Assembly (NCBI GenBank): GCA_001600875.1
Contig: BCLD01000003.1
Coordinates: 409,712-473,711, forward strand
Direction of reading: 5' to 3'
Length of the DNA stretch: 64,000 nt
DNA from: Solicoccozyma terricola
Lineage: Eukaryota; Basidiomycota; Tremellomycetes; Filobasidiales; Piskurozymaceae
The translations under genes and the position numbers were made by a program. The notes beneath the pieces are model-generated. The model was given only the letters and a program-made list of their open reading frames with translations. It was not told the DNA's origin and ran no database searches. Shown one piece after another: positions 717 to 60,756 of the stretch (within the stretch, counting starts at the first letter, position 1; each line of letters begins with the position of its first letter).

Positions 717-3700
717 ATGGCCACCACTACACCTCCTCCTCTGCGTACGCAGACGTCCTTCCTGCCGGTGAGCAGCTTGTGGCATGTTGCTGATAAAATG
801 TCCTAAGCTGGTTCCTACTCCTTCTATGTACCAGCCATTCCCATCCTTCGCATATACCACGTCCGTCCGTCATCGATCTAACGCCTTGCAGAAAGATACT
901 TCTGGAGAAGATCGAGATCGGGAGCAAGATGGTTTGGAGACTGAAGGAGGAAATTCAAAGCAACGGTATCGGCAGATACAATCATGCACGGGTGAGTCTC
1001 GGGGGTGGTAGTTTGGATGGAGCCGTTTCACTGAGACTTTCCACCACCCAAATACACTTCTTGGACATGTTATTTTCATCTTGGTATCAGAGTGTCGTCG
1101 ACGGAAAACCAAGGTGAGAAGTAACGTTCATCCATCTTTATCATTACCAGAACAGCAACTGATTCACTTCTCTCGATGATCTCCTTCCAGTGTAAGCACA
1201 CAGTCCATACCACCGTCACATCTCAGCCATCGATAACAATACATCGGGCATTTTCACCCTTCTAGGCAACAAGGCATTTCCATGCGAGCCATGCAAATCA
1301 AGAGGACCACAGGTCGCTCAATCTTGTATCGAATATGAAAAGGAGATGCCAAGTGGTTATATGTGAGCGCTTACAACCTGTTCCAGCGATGACCCGAGGC
1401 TGAATGATGGTCTGAACTTTCCACAGCGGATACACTCACTTGTCGGATTTTGACAAGCTAGTTCAACGGACACGGCTGCTCGAAGAGCTACTTGTTAAAA
1501 CCAACCACCATTTGAACAGTCTTCTTGGCACTACCACAGAAGATCCTGTTGACCTACCCGAGTTTCCTCCATTCCCGCCCGAATCATCTCTGCAACCATA
1601 CCACCGCGTTTCGTGGCAGGATGACGGAGATCAAGGGTATACCAACGACGTGTTGGAAAATTATCCCCAGGTAGCCAGTCCGCGAGACACGGCACAAGCC
1701 CGTCAATCAGGTCATTTCTATCACAGTCAACCTCCGAGTAAAGCGCCATCCTTGGCTGATCATAATGCAGCGCTGCTTCTCGAGGTGAGTGGGATGAGCG
1801 TTCGGGAAAGGTGGCCCCTCCGCAATGGATGCTACTACAAAGCTAACTTCATTTCCCAACGACATCAGGATATTGCGCTCAACAGGAGCAGTAACGTACA
1901 GAGGGAGACGATGCCGGAGCCTAACAGTGGGTATATCAGTTACCGACATCAAACGACACGCAATGACTGACGCTGAAATCATTGAACAACGAATCATGGT
2001 CATGAAGCCAACACAGTCGACCCCGCCTCCACCTTTCAAGAACCCCACCCGTCATGGGAGAGACAATCGACCTCTGTGACGATATGCATTCCCGATTTGG
2101 ATATCCTGCCGAGTAAAGATACCATGAGCAAGCTGTTGAACATTTTTGTGAGATGCCTTGTCCGTCCGTTCTCATCGATTGTTGCTCATGCCAGGCGGAC
2201 ATTGTTCTCCCATTAGGTGACTCGATACGAGTGGACCTTTCGTTGCATGCACGTCCCCACGTTCCAACAGGATAACACCGTCTTCCTCGCCATGCCCCTT
2301 TTCAACCCGCTGAGCCTGAAAGAAGCAGCTCATACGATTCTCGTAACAGCGTGTCTATGTACGACATTGCATCTCATCGATGACTCACCCACGCTACTGG
2401 CACTCGGGTACACGGAAAGCTCGAGGGCAGCAACCACTAGGGCGTTGTCGAATCTGGTTGAGATGGGACTCATGCGATCTGACTGGCTTCAGAATCATCG
2501 AATGGAGTGGTTGCAGGCGTTCATGTGAGTGCAGCAGGTGCGCTCTCGGTGATCCATAGGCTGAAAGCGGGATATCGCAGAATCATCGGTCCTTACTGGC
2601 ATGCTATCGGCCGATCCGAAGCCCACTGGACGATGCTGGGGAGCGTTATCAAGGTAGGATGCCCCTTCGGCACTACTCCGATTTCCACAAAGCGTAGCTT
2701 ACTATTTCGACAGATTGCTCATGGTCTCGGCCTATCCCATGTATTCCCTGAACTTGCCGCTACTGCAACGGCTGGAGAGGTGCGCAGACATTACGGGCCC
2801 AGGTGGTCAAATGCGGCGGATCGTGAGGTTGCGCGAAGAGTTTGGTACACCTTGGTGAGCTTTCCGGGCACAGCTTGGCAATACGCGGGAGCGTCATGTT
2901 GAAAGGTGCGGTATTCCATGACCACAGGTAGACCTCGATTGGACATCATGTGCCGAGCACCACTTCACCTACATCACCCCTGCCGAGCTTCATAATGTCT
3001 CGGAACCGGCCAATATCGAGGATGAAGATCTGCATGGATACGGCCCCATCTTAGCGCAGCCAATTCACATACGCACGGTGGGTTGATCGGCGCGATGTTG
3101 TGCGTGTTTGATTTGGTTTATCTGACAAACGATCTGAAACCCGTAGCGCATGTCATTCTTCCTTGCTCGCCTGTCTTTGGTGCATCCGCTGCAAACGATG
3201 AACAAAAAGGTCATCGCTCGAGTGAGGTTGAATTATGATCTACTGATGGAGTGAGTCTGCGGTGTGGGCAGGCAGGCGAGAGTTGAAAACGGTTGCTTAC
3301 GAATCGTTGCGTACTTTTACGCCTCCCAAGATGCCATCATGATACGCTTAAAGCGATGCACGCCTGGCCGGATTATTATCAGCCGGCGGTGAACCCCGAG
3401 TTCCACACCCCGGATGCGGCTTCATGGAGTCAGCTGTGAGTGGCCAAAGTGTGACATATTTGGTCTAGGGGTCCGTAGGCTGATATGTTTCTTTCGCGGC
3501 CATCATAGGGTAGCTGAACGGGCGCTCTTGCACTTTGAAGGGGAGACTCGGCTACTTCGGCTACATCGAATATATCTACCCAACGCATTTTCCTCGAGGT
3601 AGGCGAGCGTTGAATGGTATCGGTCGAGGAAGGAACGTGGACGCTAACATATCCCCTTTCCCCAACCACCACCACCACCTTGTAGTCGGTATGCTTTGTC

Positions 3701-4694
3701 TAGAAAGACATGCGCTACGGAAGCGTCGAAAATGTTGTTGGCGACGGATGAAACGTTGGCTTTACTATCTCGGAGACTCTGGTGGGTGGGGGGGGGGGGG
3801 GGTTGTGTTGTTGGACAATCGCTGAATGTTACCTTTTTTTTTCCGGCCAGGACGTGGAGACATGGAGTACTCTCTGCCACTATCGTTCTGCTATGCATTT
3901 TCTTCCATGCCAAGGAGGATTCCGAGTCGAAGCAGCTGGAAAGTCTCGTCCGAGGAGGTATCGAGGACTTGAGGTGAGGGAGAGAGTGGAGGGTTGACGT
4001 TTTTGTGTTGTTTCGCGCAGCATGACTGAGTGAGACCTACTGCCGAACAGATCTCAAGCAGATTCAATCGCACTATCCAGATCCGCAGACTCTCTTGAAG
4101 CGTTGCTAGGTGAGTCTTGGGGAAGGAAGATTGCCGGATGGCACATTACTAATTCCTCCTCCGCCCGCCCGCCCGCCCACCACCCCGACCCCGACCCCCT
4201 TTCAGACGACGAGATCGCTTGGCGGAGCAAGCAAGGGACTAAAAAGAGTGGTTCTGCGAGATCTGGTGGAAAGAAACGGCTGCGTGACGTTCGTGGAGAG
4301 GAGGAAGACTCGGACGCTCATCGACTGGTGAAGCGTGTGATGGTACGTGAGGGGACGGACGTGTGTCGTTTGAATCCTGTAAAGTCTCTGGTTGGTTGGC
4401 GCTGGCTGTCTGGGCTGATGAGGGAAGACCGGTTTTTTTTTTTCACCACAGTCGGCTACTGGACATGCACCCCGAGGTGGTGATTCTAGCGACACAAGTC
4501 CTAGCATTCGAACGGACGTTGGTAGTGGCGGTGGTTTGCTCGGTATCGACCAACCGGACACCATCAACCCGTTTGCAGATTTCGACGTGAGCGGTATGGA
4601 GTTTATTGGCGATCAAGGGATGTTGGATGGTGGTTGGGCTGATCCGTGGCTGGTGGAGCTATTGAGAGGAAGCATGACTGCTGGGGGTATGTAG
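717..4694 (+). CDS. Zn(II)2Cys6 fungal transcription factor
   Basis: A probable nuclear DNA-binding regulator of the fungal binuclear zinc cluster class; its target pathway cannot be inferred. The first exons are 717-767, 892-991, 1091-1113, 1191 (one base), 1266-1362, 1427-1784, 1869-1926 and 2017-2147. Spliced, they give CTECRRRKTK, then CNKAFPCEPCKSRG and a sixth Cys in VAQSC, which is a full C6 cluster (last spacing x10, slightly long). A leucine-rich stretch follows (residues ~110-130, LEELLVKTNHHLNSLL), then an ILPSKDTMSKLLNIFV segment typical of the start of the fungal_trans middle homology region. HVPTFQQD, the LIDDSP region, IIIGPYWHAIG, IAHGLGLS and VARRVWYTLV match the layout of that domain. 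Later short exons run through WTWRHGVLSATIVLL and end GSMTAGGM with TAG at 4692-4694. Frame is maintained through every junction checked. The poly-G tract near 3787-3801 is intronic. Start ATG 717 is inferred from the splice into 892. Confidence 0.85.
1191..1191 (+). other. single-nucleotide microexon (T)
   Basis: Exon 1091-1113 ends ACC AAG followed by gtgagaag. At 1181-1197 the sequence reads ctccttccag|T|gtaagc, and the next acceptor is ttctag at 1260-1265 before GCAACAAGG. Only insertion of the single T yields AAG TGC AAC, restoring the third Cys of the zinc cluster. One intron spanning 1114-1265 would shift the frame and destroy the cluster. The first six exons then total 630 nt, exactly 210 codons. 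Both flanking introns (77 and 74 nt) have good GT-AG signals. RNA evidence is not available here. Confidence 0.75.
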
Positions 4695-4724
4695 ACGCAG
4701 GGGTGTTAGGAACCACATGGAAAG

Positions 4725-5304: not shown

Positions 5305-5312
5305 NNNNNNNN
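5305..5312. other. assembly gap, 8 N
   Basis: Eight undetermined bases sit inside a C-rich simple repeat. The true length is unknown. It lies between genes in the model used here. Confidence 0.98.
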
Positions 5313-15471: not shown

Positions 15472-17486
15472 ATCCAACACCTCCTAGGCTCATGATCCCA
15501 CCTGGAAACGTCCGTGAGTATATCTCGGTCTCATCGCATGCAAGCCACTGGCCAAAGTCGTAGATAGATAGATAGCTGACAGCCGCCGCCCGGTGGGGGA
15601 AATAAAATGCCTTTGTTCCGTTCCGTTCGTCGTCCTTTCACCAACAGCCGGTGGTTCCCTCTTCGATCAACCCGGAGACGGCGACGGCGCCTGGATCACT
15701 CCCTCACCTTCCCAGTCTCGCTCGATAACTTCCTCCTTGCCGTATCCATCCAAATCAACCTCGACCTCTTTCTCACATCTTCTAGCTCCTCCACCTTTAC
15801 GACCACAACTCTCCCTCCCACTCCAAGGCTCATCAGCACGCAACTTGGACCTCGCACCTCCCTCTACACCACCTCGTCCAATCTCCAACCCCGTATCCAG
15901 AGCTCGCACTCCAGCATTGAGTCTGAACATATCCTCCATCTCCGCTCAACCAACCTCCTCTGCCCCACCTACCACGACATCGTCGACGGAAGACGGAGGA
16001 GGAGGACGACTCGTTCACCCGACAGTTGGAAAAAATGATCAATTCGATTCCACCGCATCGAGTTACGGTGCATTGCAAACTCCGCTGGCTACTCGACCTG
16101 CCGGGTTGATGTCGGGTGGGGACAAGACAATCACCTCGATGACGGAGGATTTGCGAGCAGCGTTAGGTCAAATGGCTTTAGGAGGACAAAGTGGAGCGAG
16201 TCAGAACGCCAGCAGGCGTGAATCGGCTGAGGAGAAGCAGCAGCAAGAGGAAAGTGATCGAGAGAGTGATGAGTCGGTGAGACACGTTTCATCGAGTAGA
16301 GGTTCATTATCCCGATCGTCGAGTACGGCATCCAAGACGGACGTGTTGTCCCTCTCTGTTGGTGGTGGAGGAGATGCACCGAGGTTGGATCTTTCAGATT
16401 TTGAGATGATGGGTAGGCTAGGGGAAGGCGCAGGTGGAGCTGTGGAAAAAGTCAAGGAAAAGAAGAGTGGCAGGGTGATGGCTCTGAAAGTGAGTGTTCG
16501 GTGTCACCTGCCCGCCCACATGATCATTCACATAACGCAAAAATGCTGAATGTTCACCAACCACTCTTGGCAGATCATTCCAACGTCTCCCAACCCCGCA
16601 ATACACAAACAAATCCTCCGAGAACTGCTCTTCCTCAACTCTTGTGCCTCACCTCACATCATCCAACACTACGGCTCATTTTTGACATCCTCGGACTCGT
16701 GCATCGGCATTCTCATGGAATACTGTGAAGCTGGATCACTAGACTCTCTCATTCGGCGAATCGCTCGGAGGCGGGGTCGGACAGGAGAGAAGGTTCTGGC
16801 GCGGATCAGTGAGAGCATGTTGAAGGGACTAGATTACCTTCATGGACGGAAGATCATTCATAGAGATATCAAACCGAGTAACGTCCTGGTAACGAGGGCG
16901 GGAGAGGTCAAACTCTGTGATTTCGGCGTCAGTGGAGAGTTGGTGAACAGCATGGCAGGGACTTTTACTGGAACGAGCTTTTACATGGCTGTGAGTGGGC
17001 GTTTGTTATGTCCCCGCGAGAGTGCAAAGTTTCACATGACGAGTGACTCCCTCTGCAGCCGGAACGCATCCAAGGCCTTCCTTACTCTATCAAATCCGAC
17101 GTATGGTCCCTCGGCCTCACCCTCCACGAGACGGCCCATAACCGGTTCCCATTCCCACCCGAGGGAGAGGAACCACTGGCCGGGCCGATCGAATTGCTAA
17201 CCTTTATAGTGACTCAGCCTGTGCCAAGGATGGTGGACAATCCGGAGGAAGGTGTCGTTTGGAGCGAGGGAGTGCAGGACTTTTTGAGCAGATGGTGTGT
17301 GGAGGAGATGATCGAGGGGAGCGTGGCATGCAACTGATTTCCTGAACCATACATATCCTTAGCCTCATTCGCGTTCCCGATGAACGGCCGTATCCCCGCG
17401 AGCTCCTGAGGCATCCCTGGATCGTCGAGAGCGAGAAGCGGAATCTCAACCTCGCGAAATGGGTCGCGATGGTGTGTGAGTGGTAG
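15381..17486 (+). CDS. MKK2: MAP kinase kinase, Mkk1/Mkk2 (cell wall integrity) type
   Basis: A dual-specificity kinase expected to phosphorylate the Slt2/Mpk1 MAPK downstream of Bck1. Five exons (15381-15513, 15648-16489, 16574-16990, 17059-17294, 17363-17486) give 583 residues. The N-terminal ~290 residues are Pro/Ser-rich and low-complexity. The kinase domain follows: Gly loop [11 protein letters not shown] (~residue 304), catalytic Lys in MALK (325), [10 protein letters not shown] (~421), CDFGVSGE (~441), an activation segment with the MAPKK spacing S-x3-T ([13 protein letters not shown]), then [33 protein letters not shown] and [12 protein letters not shown] are characteristic of the Mkk1/2 branch rather than Ste7 or Pbs2. 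The C-terminal lobe ends [10 protein letters not shown], about 20 residues before the stop. Exon 1 overlaps a putative antisense gene. The symbol follows the family. Confidence 0.9.
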
Positions 17487-28625: not shown

Positions 28626-31600
28626 CTAATCAATCTTGCTAAGAGTCTGCATCTGAGTCAGTTCATAATACCTGCCCTTCTTGGCTATCAGCTGCAGATG
28701 CGTTCCCGCCTCGGCGATGCGTCCCTCATGGAAGTAATAAATCCTGTTGGCGTTCTGAACGGTGGACAAACGGTGTGCAATGGAGACGACGGTGAGGTTG
28801 CGGTTTTGGATGACGTTGTCGATGGCGGCCTGAACGACTCGCTCCGATTGCGAGTCGAGAGCGGAAGTTGCCTCATCGAGGAGCAGAATCTTGGGGTTTC
28901 GAATCAGAGCACGGGCGATAGCAATACGTTGTTTCTGACCACCAGAGAGTTGAGTTCCTTTGTTACCACAGAACGTGTCAAAGCCATCTGGGAGCGACAT
29001 GATGAAATCGTAAATGTTCGCGTCCTTGCACGCCTTTACGAGCTCTTCTTCGGTGACTTCCTCAGATGGCTTATTGGCGCCAAGAAGGATGTTGAAACGG
29101 ACGCTGCAGGCGTAAAGCGTTGGTTCCTGGCTGACCAGGGAAATCTGGCTACGGTAGCTGGCGAGGTTGAGATCGGTAATCGGTTGTCCATCTATGGAGA
29201 TGATTCCCTGGAGAGGATCGTAAAATCGTTCAAGGAGACCGATACATGTTGATTTCCCACATCCGGAGGGACCGACGAGAGCAACGTACCAGCCTGCGGG
29301 GATATCGAGATCGAGGCCACGGAGAACTCGGACAGCCGGGCGAGATGGGTACCGGAAGTGAACATTGTCCATACGGAGATGTCCACGCACGGCCGAGTCG
29401 TCTAAAACACGTCCTGCCGGTGAATCGCAGTCGATCTCCGGGACTTGATCGGACAGCCTGATGATCGAGGTCGACGACGACTGGGCTTTGCTCATATCTG
29501 GGACAAACATGAAGACATTTCCTGCCTGAATAGCGGCGAACACGACCGAGTTGAGAACGGTGAAGTAAGAGGCCACAGCGAACGAGCCATCCGCAATCCA
29601 GCGAGACCCGACGTAGAAGACCAAGGCGATGACAGGGAAAGCCAGTGCTTGCGATGTCGCATAGAGTAGATTGTTCCGGAATGCCGCACGGATAGATCGT
29701 CGGAATGGGGGATCGAGAGCAGCAGAGTGAACGTCACAACAATCCTTCTCCATCGTGAGTGCGGCAACAGTCTTGATGGCACCCGCAGCTTCAGAGGCTA
29801 GATGAGCAGTGGATGCGTACGCCTTTCGATTAGCTTCGTCCTTCATGACGACGAGACGCAGACGGATGTAACCGGTGGTGACGAGGAGCGGGATGCAGGC
29901 GATACCGATGGCTGCGAGCTTCGCTCCGAAGATCAACCCGACGATGCAACCAATGGTGAGCGTCGAGATGGCTTGAATGATGGCACCGAGAGTGACACCG
30001 GCGAGACCGTTAAACTTTTGCGGCCAGTCGGACAGGTTACTGGTCAGAGAACCCGTAGCATTGCCCTCCTCATCAAAGAATGCGATGTCCTGCCTGAGAA
30101 TGGCCCTGAAGGTCAAGGATCGTAGCTTTGCAGTGAGATGCTCCGCAGTGTTGGATAGCGAGCCGTTCTGGACCAGGATGGCAAATGCAGATACGATGGC
30201 GGAGATGAAGTACCAGAGACCGTTCCGCTGGGAGTCCTTGCGGATTTCGGCGGGATCGGTCTGTGCGAATGCGGCAATAGACTGTCCAAACAGGATGGCC
30301 AGGGCTGGGTAGACCGCACCCGAAGCGATCGCGCCCAAAAAACCACAAATGTAGACGTACTTTTGTTCTCGGTTGATGCGGTACATGCGCTTGGCAAGGT
30401 AGAAAAGGCCAAGGCGGCTTTCGTCCGCCTCTTCACGCTCACCGAGGTCGTACGAGCTAGCCTTACCGCTCGTGTTGGTGGTAGCTCGGCGGAGAAGCTC
30501 GGGTCTCTGTTCGGCAAGAGTATCGTCTGAAGAGTCGGGAGTTTCATCCTCTTCGACCTTTTTCTCCTGATTGAGAGCCTGGGCGGAGACGAGTGCAGCG
30601 TACGGACCATTCTCGTTGGCCAGGAGCTCGTTGTGGGTTCCTTTTTCGAGGACCGCACCGGATCCCATGACGAAGATCTGGGGAACGGGAGGGAGGAAAG
30701 AGTCAGCGTTGCATTCCACAGCATCGTAGGCGTGAAACCTACACAATCAGAGTTCCTGATAGTAGCGAGACGATGAGCGACAGTGACAGTGGTCCTACCC
30801 TCACTAGCCTTATCCAAGGCGTCCTGTACGACGGCTTCGGACTTGCCATCGAGAGCGGAGGTCGCTTCGTCGAGAATGAGAATCTGTGCGGAAAGATGAA
30901 GACGTCAGCGCTAGTTTGCTGTTAAAAGGATGGTCCACGTACCTTAGGGTCGGAGATGATTGCACGAGCGATAGCGACACGCTGCTTTTGACCACCGCTC
31001 AGCAGCATTCCTCGCTCACCGACGTCCGTGTTGTATCCTTCAGGTAGTTGGGTGATGAAGTCATGCGCATTCGCCTTGATGCACGCAGCCTTGACAAGCT
31101 CCATCTTTTCATCCGGGGACAGCTTCTCGAGCGGGCTTCCAAGCAGTCCTGTTTCGATATTGGCACGGACGGATCGCCCGAACAGGGTAGGTTCTTGCGA
31201 GACCAAACCGATGTTCTGACGAAGCCAGCGAACGTTTAGCGTGCGTATGTCGCGTCCATCCAACAGAACACGGCCAGAGAGGCAGTCGTAATACCTCAAG
31301 ATGAGAGCGGCGATGGTTGATTTACCGGAACCGGAAGCGCCAACGAGGGCATTCGTGTGACCTGCTTCAAACGTGAGGGATAATCCTGGTTCCTGAAGGA
31401 TCGGGACGTCCGGTCTAGAGGGGTACGCGAAGACGACGTTCTCGAATTCGATCTTTCCGTGAACGACGTCGGGGCGGAGACCTTCCTCGCTTGCGCTGTC
31501 GATGAGTGGAACCCTTTCGATGGTCTCGAAGATCTTGGCAGCGGCACCTCGAGCCTTTCCAATCGCTTCCAACTCCGGGTTCAACATCGCCATGGAGAAG

Positions 31601-59661: not shown

Positions 59662-60756
59662 ATGAGATTTCTGGACGAGGACAAAGAGGATGAATACGAA
59701 GACCAAGAGGTCTCGCAACAGATTGAGGTTACGTTTGAAGATGAGGCGGATGAGGATGTGTTTGGAGGTGCTAGTTGTCAGGTATGTCCCTTTTTGAAGC
59801 AGCCTCATCTCCTAACGATCGCTGATTCCGTCTACCCCCCCCCCCCCCCCCCCCCCCCCCNNNNNNNNNNNNNNNNNNNNNNNNNNNNNNNNNNNNNNNN
59901 NNNNNNNNNNNNNNNNNNNNNNNNNNNNNNNNNNNNNNNNNNNNNNNNNNNNNNNNNNNNNNNNNNNNNNNNNNNNNNNNNNNNNNNNNNNNNNNNNNNN
60001 NNNNNNNNNNNNNNNNNNNNNNNNNCCCCCCAATCGTCTAATCAGATCATCGCTTCCGAGAATCCCGTAACCTATGGCTCTCGCAGTCGCTCTCGACCAT
60101 CAAAGAACTCGGACAGCAGCACCCCTTGTCCAGCCAACACCCCACATCCAGCCAAGTGCAAGTGGCCGGTTGACAATGGCACCAGCTCCAGCGGGAAGAA
60201 GAAGAAACCAGCTCTTTACCCTCCTCCTCCTCCACCAGCCAAATCCAAGGGTCAACTCCGAGCCAGCAAGCGCAAACAACAAGCAGCGAGTGATAATGAT
60301 GATGATGGTGCTGAAGATGATGACAACGATGACGGGGATGTCGTTGTCGATGGTACGATGGTGCCTTACCGACCAGAGATCCCTGATGATGTCGTAAGTA
60401 AATGTCGAGTTTTTTGAGCGAGCAGTCAATGTGACATCACTGTTTGATATCCATGACACTATCGGCAGCATCCCATGCACTGTTTCGATAATACCTCCAC
60501 CTATCAGCAGGAAGAATTGGAAGTGTGGCGATGTGCGATCATCCTGGAGAAAAGCCTTCATGCAGTCGAGAAGGATGAAACTGCCACACCATCCGGAACA
60601 TGCAAGCCTATCATAAATGAGGCCTCCATGGGCTTTCTGGGGGTTCCATGGCCTTTCGAGACTTCTAGGATTGATGAGGTAAGCTGGACCCACCAGAACG
60701 AGGTGCATGAATCTAGCCGTATAATGTTGGCAGATGGAATGTCGAGCACACTGTGA
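59662..60756 (+). CDS. unknown nuclear-looking protein, interrupted by an assembly gap
   Basis: The left part encodes an acidic segment (DEDKEDEYEDQEVSQQIE) with a donor at TGTCAG|gtatgt before the gap. Right of the gap the frame reads TYGSRSRSRPSKNSDS, GKKKKPALYPPPPPPAKSKG and an acidic DNDDDGAEDDDNDDGD run. An intron follows after EIPDDV (gtaagt...atcggcag), then HPMHCFDNTSTYQQEELEVW and MGFLGVPWPFETSRID, with TGA at 60754-60756. The two parts may or may not belong together. The start is not determined; the KKKKP cluster suggests nuclear location. No domain recognised. Confidence 0.45.
59861..60025. other. assembly gap, 165 N, flanked by poly-C
   Basis: The gap is bordered by about 24 C on the left and 6 C on the right, so assembly failed inside or beside a long C homopolymer. 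Confidence 0.98.

Follow-up and report, generated by a model that had tools for sequence, protein, structure and literature searches.

The lone T at position 1191 of the window, the 64,000-nt stretch of Solicoccozyma terricola DNA analysed here, is very probably a real single-nucleotide exon, at which two ordinary short GT-AG introns would split the codon for the third cysteine (Cys3) of a Zn2Cys6 DNA-binding cluster as AAG|T|GC. An earlier note on this DNA had proposed that the Cys3 codon is spread over three exons with the T as the middle one. The present analysis supported this proposal, in that the T exon gave the only model combining the frame, the cluster and ordinary splice sites, and in that a paralogue on another contig (C6) shares it. 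The exon coordinates proposed there were also found to be correct, namely an exon at 1091-1113 ending in AAG, the T at 1191 preceding GTAAGC, and a following exon starting at 1266 with GCAAC. Newly recognized here is the paralogue, which in its predicted structure carries the same pair of a 23-nt and a 1-nt exon at the same codon.

Gene structure and protein domains

The host genome of the window comprises 33 contigs and 23.9 Mb. The gene was modelled by hand as summarized in Table 1, and most of exons 2-19 were recovered by aligning paralogue proteins. For the joins of exons 7 and 8, an exact match was obtained only from L086 (the C6 protein) among four paralogue proteins; L083 and L087 favoured 1938/2008, and L084 favoured 1926/2041.

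Pfam searches of the encoded protein identified a Zn_clus domain at residues 47-83 (25.8 bits in the full protein; cut-off 21) and a Fungal_trans domain at residues 271-508 (40.7 bits; cut-off 23), the domain pair of a Zn2Cys6 factor. The cysteines of Zn2Cys6 clusters are spaced as CX2CX6CX5-12CX2CX6-8C. Cys1 to Cys5 of the window protein fit this pattern, and the last spacing is ten residues (CKSRGPQVAQSC) as against 6-8, the cluster piece scoring 31.0 bits with Zn_clus. In addition, Cys3 aligned with a cluster cysteine in two solved structures, CBF3 subunit B (7k7g, E 0.0014) and CYP1/HAP1 (1pyc, E 0.013).

Table 1. Features of the Zn2Cys6 regulator gene, in window coordinates
Feature	Position	Strand	Content and basis
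Zn2Cys6 regulator gene (Zn_clus + Fungal_trans)	717..4697	+	20 exons, 815 aa; hand model
Exon 2	892..991	+	ends ...QSCT + one base of the following codon; carries Cys1; hand model and paralogue alignments
Exon 3, 23 nt, ends AAG	1091..1113	+	Cys2 and basic stretch (CRRRKTK); C6 has an exon of identical length (L086 1452-1474)
Intron A, 77 nt, GTGAGA...CCTTCCAG	1114..1190	+	phase 0, directly before the Cys3 codon; YTRAY 32 nt from its end
Single-nucleotide exon T (predicted)	1191..1191	+	first base of the Cys3 codon (T|GC); spliced alignments, exhaustive GT-AG models, Pfam
Intron B, 74 nt, GTAAGC...CCTTCTAG	1192..1265	+	phase 1, within the Cys3 codon; C7 (L083) and C6 (L086) have an intron there too
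Exon 5, begins GCAAC	1266..1362	+	remainder of the Cys3 codon and Cys4-Cys6; hand model and paralogue alignments
Exon 6 (GYTHLSDF region)	1427..1784	+	hand model and paralogue alignments
Exons 7 (1869-1926) and 8 (2017-2147)	1869..2147	+	58 + 131 = 189 nt, in phase; joins less certain
Exons 9-15, most of the Fungal_trans domain	2217..3598	+	hand model, Pfam, paralogue alignments

Requirement for the probable single-nucleotide exon

The T at 1191 is flanked by AG on its left and GT on its right, and the introns of 77 and 74 nt on its two sides lie within the 50-124 nt range of trusted introns, which is the layout of a single-nucleotide exon. The sequence Lys-Cys-Asn was found to be unreachable by any contiguous intron, whatever its boundary dinucleotides, as GTG follows AAG (1113) and GGC precedes AAC (1268). 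In a count of the possible GT-AG models, exons 3 and 5 kept their outer ends, no intron was allowed to be shorter than 40 nt, and the cysteine pattern looked for was CX2CX6CX5-12CX2C. None of the 122 one-intron models retained both the frame and the pattern. The earlier claim that no single-intron model keeps the frame did not hold as worded, since 24 of these models were open in frame; its substance survived, all 24 having lost the cluster pattern. Three of the 657 two-intron models retained frame and pattern, the T exon being among them; the other two employ the donors GTCCAT or GTCACA with the acceptor ACAAG, and the T model alone has ordinary splice sites. With Pfam Zn_clus, the nearest single-intron rivals of the cluster piece scored 11.2 and 14.7 bits, compared with the 31.0 bits obtained with the T (cut-off 21).

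Spliced alignment was carried out with a purpose-written protein-to-genome aligner, using four paralogue proteins at three intron penalties (10, 16 and 22), and the exon 1191-1191 was chosen in all 12 runs. When the donor at 1192 was forbidden, the score dropped by 13-14 points at a penalty of 10 and by 7-8 points at a penalty of 16. These alignments are not fully independent, since the window protein had served as the query from which the four paralogue proteins were modelled. The aligner can also produce spurious tiny exons where sequences diverge, as shown by an exon of 0 nt that it placed in a divergent part of L086, and little weight would therefore attach to any tiny exon lying outside conserved stretches.

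As the earlier note had stated, the coding length with the T reaches 630 nt at 1784 and grows by a further 189 nt up to 2147, the phase being kept at each of these junctions, and no stop is encountered until after 815 aa. The GT-AG models, the alignments, the Pfam scores and the frame outcomes described below thus indicated that the T exon is required for both the frame and the conserved cluster motif.

Paralogues in the same genome

A protein search of the genome identified relatives of the window protein on contigs C7, C2, C15, C6, C14, and C5. C6 (L086), whose protein is 32.6% identical to that of the window gene, displayed the junctions AAA|GTGAGC...TTATTTCAG|T|GTTAGT...CCCACAG|GCGAC, that is, a 23-nt exon followed by a 1-nt T exon at the identical codon. 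In the enumeration of its GT-AG models, none of 114 one-intron and one of 746 two-intron models kept frame and pattern, so that the T exon stood alone among 860; 31 of the 114 one-intron models were open, none with the cysteine pattern. Alignment of the L083, L084, and L087 proteins to C6 selected the exon 1541-1541 in eight of nine runs, the ninth not spanning the region, and forbidding the T exon lowered the score by 20 (penalty 10 only). The protein of the C6 T-exon model scored 32.9 bits with Zn_clus (Pfam, cut-off 21).

The T exon was retained in one of the four paralogues having a cluster, being present in C6 and absent from C7, C2, and C14. C7 (L083) has one 24-nt exon (1627-1650) ending in T and the downstream intron only (T|GTAGGC...TTCCAG|GC). 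In C2 (L084) and C14 (L087), Cys3 is uninterrupted in the DNA, and an intron lies a few bases further on. The 23-nt exon of the window gene, like that at L086 1452-1474, is itself a microexon, and 23 + 1 = 24 nt equals the length of the single C7 exon.

In C15 (L085, C15:10500-18000) and C5 (L088, C5:310000-316000), the middle domain was matched, and a scan of the DNA just upstream found no Zn cluster; these two are possibly cluster-less members or broken copies. By eye, the DNA upstream of L088 resembles a different gene. An uninterrupted Zn cluster, that of L026, is located about 3 kb upstream of L085 and was taken, without proof, to belong to another gene. Searches for relatives in bacterial/archaeal and viral contigs yielded 70 and 43 pattern stretches, respectively, none of which was confirmed.

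Splice-site strength and chance expectation

The splice sites were compared with those of 43 trusted introns from these genes, which range in length from 50 to 124 nt with a median of 64, the rank being the number of trusted sites that score no higher. For window intron A, the ranks were 33/43 (donor) and 20/43 (acceptor), and for window intron B, 4/43 and 21/43. The corresponding values were 26/43 and 12/43 for C6 intron A, 4/43 and 41/43 for C6 intron B, and 4/43 and 10/43 for C7 intron B. The intron B donors are accordingly weak in both the window gene and C6, with only four of the 43 trusted donors as low. A YTRAY motif was absent from intron B of both the window gene and C6 in the checked range; 29 of the 43 trusted introns have one and 14 lack it. 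Taken as one intron, the gap would be 152 nt in the window gene and 131 nt in C6, above all 43 trusted introns, while the T divides it into 77 + 74 and 66 + 64 nt, respectively.

The chance occurrence of a T at an allowed place, defined as one leaving both introns at least 50 nt, was assessed in dinucleotide shuffles and in real intron-like stretches of 125-160 nt. The strict pattern YAG|T|GTRNG arose in seven of 20,000 shuffles of the window gap and in four of 2,270 real stretches. The loose pattern AG|T|GT appeared in 454 of 20,000 shuffles for the window, in 869 of 20,000 for C6, and in 77 of the 2,270 real stretches; the C6 donor GTTAGT fits the loose pattern only and fails the strict GTRNG.

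Alternative explanations

The same appearance would result if a base were missing at an exon edge through an assembly or sequencing error and the true gene had one intron of about 152 nt; draft assemblies do have single-base errors, and some N runs are contained in the window. This explanation is nonetheless very improbable, because C6, on a separate contig, would require an identical base at the corresponding position; moreover, the supposed intron would exceed every trusted intron, and the strict pattern would have to be an intronic chance match at the frequencies given above. Also improbable, if somewhat less so, is that one intron alone uses a different splice site, leaving the protein in frame, dropping Cys3 and making the cluster degenerate, as in the models 1114-1273 (RRRKTKAFPC) and 1121-1265 (RRRKTKVRSNKAFPC). 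Both are open and in frame, the former giving 812 aa, but they are the rivals that fell under the Zn_clus cut-off; furthermore, just one of the 43 trusted acceptors is as low as that at 1273 and one of the 43 donors as low as that at 1121, and the open one-intron models of C6 all lacked the cysteine pattern. A practically negligible probability was assigned to a [D1,2] stwintron, in which intron A would interrupt the donor of an outer intron and the mRNA would keep nothing from between the two. Abutting introns excised in turn do look alike, and G1113 together with T1191-GTAAG can be read as a donor; however, dropping G1113 and T1191 breaks the frame (100 + 22 + 97 = 219 nt versus 221), exon 3 of C6 ends in A and thus offers no G for a split donor, and keeping G1113 while removing all of 1114-1265 puts the sequence out of frame, with translation ending after 101 aa. 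An outer donor split after its first base with nothing coding in between, by which such stwintrons are recognized, was therefore not found here.

It is unlikely, though less so than the foregoing explanations, that the 23-nt and 1-nt exons form a split microexon cassette of 24 nt, kept through an old duplication, whose regulated joint inclusion or skipping would yield an in-frame DNA-binding or non-binding factor, a switch resting on an exon of the least possible length. Joint loss of the two exons did keep the frame in the window gene, giving 807 aa that lack Cys2, Cys3 and the basic stretch, and it did so likewise in the part of C6 that was read. The other mis-splicings computed for the window gene all led to early stops, after 101 aa upon loss of the T alone, which shifts the frame, 79 aa with intron A retained, 82 aa with intron B retained, and 74 aa when exon 3 alone was lost; a precedent is also available in the 20-nt microexon switch within the Zn2Cys6 domain of Trichoderma Xlr2 (PMC11121469). 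On the other hand, chance alone puts a third of all length sums in frame, common descent accounts for the agreement between the paralogues, loss of the T in the C6 stretch read shifts the frame yet meets no stop, and the skip would require an intron of 274 nt as against 50-124 nt for the trusted introns. The suggestion of the earlier note that splicing choice would switch the factor on or off is speculation: loss of the T alone ends in the stop after 101 aa, and the in-frame alternative acceptor at 1273 is matched in its low score by just one of 43 trusted acceptors.

Proposed order of splicing

If the T is spliced as a single-nucleotide exon, presumably in constitutive fashion, introns A and B would be removed consecutively, as their adjoining splice sites overlap in AG-T-GT and could hardly be occupied simultaneously; the mode would be intron definition, which the shortness of the introns would favour. 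Our guess, based on the stronger donor of intron A, is that this intron would leave first, joining the T to exon 3, whereupon AAGT|GTAAGC would serve as the donor for intron B. Removal of B before A would yield an identical mRNA, and the product of either order would be the intact Zn2Cys6 DNA-binding cluster. For the single-nucleotide exon of plant APC11, its authors propose intron definition combined with recursive splicing (PMC4674806), and in a potato microexon cited in the same paper the second intron is out first, opposite to the order guessed here.

Comparison with known single-nucleotide exons

Single-nucleotide exons are already known as a class, to which the window gene would add one: they occur in APC11 of Arabidopsis (PMC4674806), in APC11 and VPS55 across land plants (PMC8831610) and in CYP621A of Fusarium (PMC12940212). 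The view expressed earlier that they are very rarely documented thus stood as to their rarity, although they proved better documented than it implied. Like the window gene, CYP621A is a fungal nuclear gene in which two short GT-AG introns (139 nt in total in F. graminearum) enclose a 1-nt exon that homologues have in common and that the frame and a conserved motif depend on; its authors count it as the second case known and the first from a fungus (PMC12940212). It differs in that the exon is the middle base of a P450 glycine codon, with 20 orthologues and RNA reads in two species (PMC12940212), whereas here the T would open a cysteine codon of a DNA-binding zinc cluster and is predicted from sequence in two paralogues. 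The plant exons resemble the present one in lying between introns, in having been missed by annotation, and in being kept in homologues, and some APC11 copies are intronless, just as relatives here read Cys3 uninterrupted; they differ in belonging to plants and to other proteins and in being supported by RNA evidence, with reporter evidence for APC11 and, for VPS55, isoforms with and without the 1-nt exon in several non-flowering plants (PMC4674806, PMC8831610).

The microexon of Xlr2 is likewise situated within the Zn2Cys6 domain, encodes cluster cysteines and was unpredicted by annotation, but it is 20 nt long, encodes PCRRCE, and is included in a glucose-dependent manner according to RNA-seq (PMC11121469). 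Stwintrons of the [D1,2] type (PMC12403724) share the abutting introns and the need for consecutive excision, and leave nothing between their parts, in contrast to the one coding base that would stay here. If spliced as read, the window gene and its paralogue would add a nuclear gene family to three well-supported cases, APC11, VPS55 and CYP621A, and would stand alone among these four in encoding a transcription factor and in having the exon in a zinc-cluster cysteine codon. With such a structure, ordinary gene finders would probably fail to recover the DNA-binding domain of this gene.

The single-base exon of placozoan cox1 lies in a mitochondrial gene and is not spliceosomal. Its occurrence in mitochondrial cox1 is described in PMC5436844, and the fungal mitochondrial introns rnl-576/577 are similarly adjacent with a one-nucleotide exon between them, relatives holding one of the two; these are group II introns of a mitochondrial rRNA gene, neither spliceosomal nor coding (PMC12308204). 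Exons of 1 bp also appear, unconfirmed, in the gene annotations of some species (PMC3064661), and two further papers cite APC11 (PMC7392893, PMC8056616). Among the matches listed in literature searches on one-nucleotide exons and on basidiomycete, Cryptococcus, and Zn2Cys6 microexons, in which subscription journals were thinly covered, no title or abstract start mentioned a transcription factor or a basidiomycete as having a 1-nt exon.

Intron history across Zn-cluster genes

In the protein tree, the window gene grouped with C2 (94/95) and C7 with C6 (91/92), both inner branches being below the tool's star, and C14 fell outside on a long branch. Intron A is present in the window gene and C6, and intron B in these two and C7; C2, the nearest tree neighbour of the window gene, has neither. 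Either the 1-nt exon would predate the duplications and have been dissolved later by intron losses, including two of intron A, or intron A would have been gained twice beside B.

A Zn_clus search of the genome listed 81 matches, of which 69 were scanned as loci for intron position, leaving 12 without a separate locus in the scan; among those scanned, L006 and L011 represent one cluster, and L045 and L065 appear misaligned. In 10 of these 69 other loci an intron immediately preceded the Cys3 codon, which is the A site itself; in three (including the apparently misaligned L045) an intron lay one base earlier, and in six it lay six bases earlier. No intron at the B site and no 1-nt exon was found in the 69 loci, to which this statement is confined. 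The Zn_clus search feeding the scan had not listed the split clusters of the window gene, C6, and C7, so clusters split in this way are easily missed. Across the 69 loci, introns were seen to cluster near the Cys3 codon of the DNA-binding cluster.

The best explanation would be that the arrangement arose once two adjacent intron sites, each singly occupied in other Zn-cluster genes, became filled together. The apparent stages are found side by side in one genome, uninterrupted in C2 and C14, with the downstream intron alone in C7, with the upstream intron alone in the 10 of 69 loci, and with both in the window gene and C6, and this would allow direct tests of how 1-nt exons arise and persist. 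The idea that intron B began as a copy of intron A found no support, 117 of 500 shuffles being equally similar; for intron B of the window gene and that of C6, 36 of 500 shuffles were as similar. An introner origin was rejected, the 152-nt stretch matching only itself in the genome in a search that skips very common words and is thus not absolute.

Surroundings of the gene

N stretches are located at 5305-5312, 53302, 53306, and 59861-60025 of the window, and tRNA and Rfam scans of the window found nothing. Two neighbouring reading frames gave domain matches, namely a protein kinase match at 16550-17197 on the forward strand (Pkinase, 116.2 bits) and an ABC transporter match at 28629-30746 on the reverse strand (ABC_membrane, 152.6 bits).
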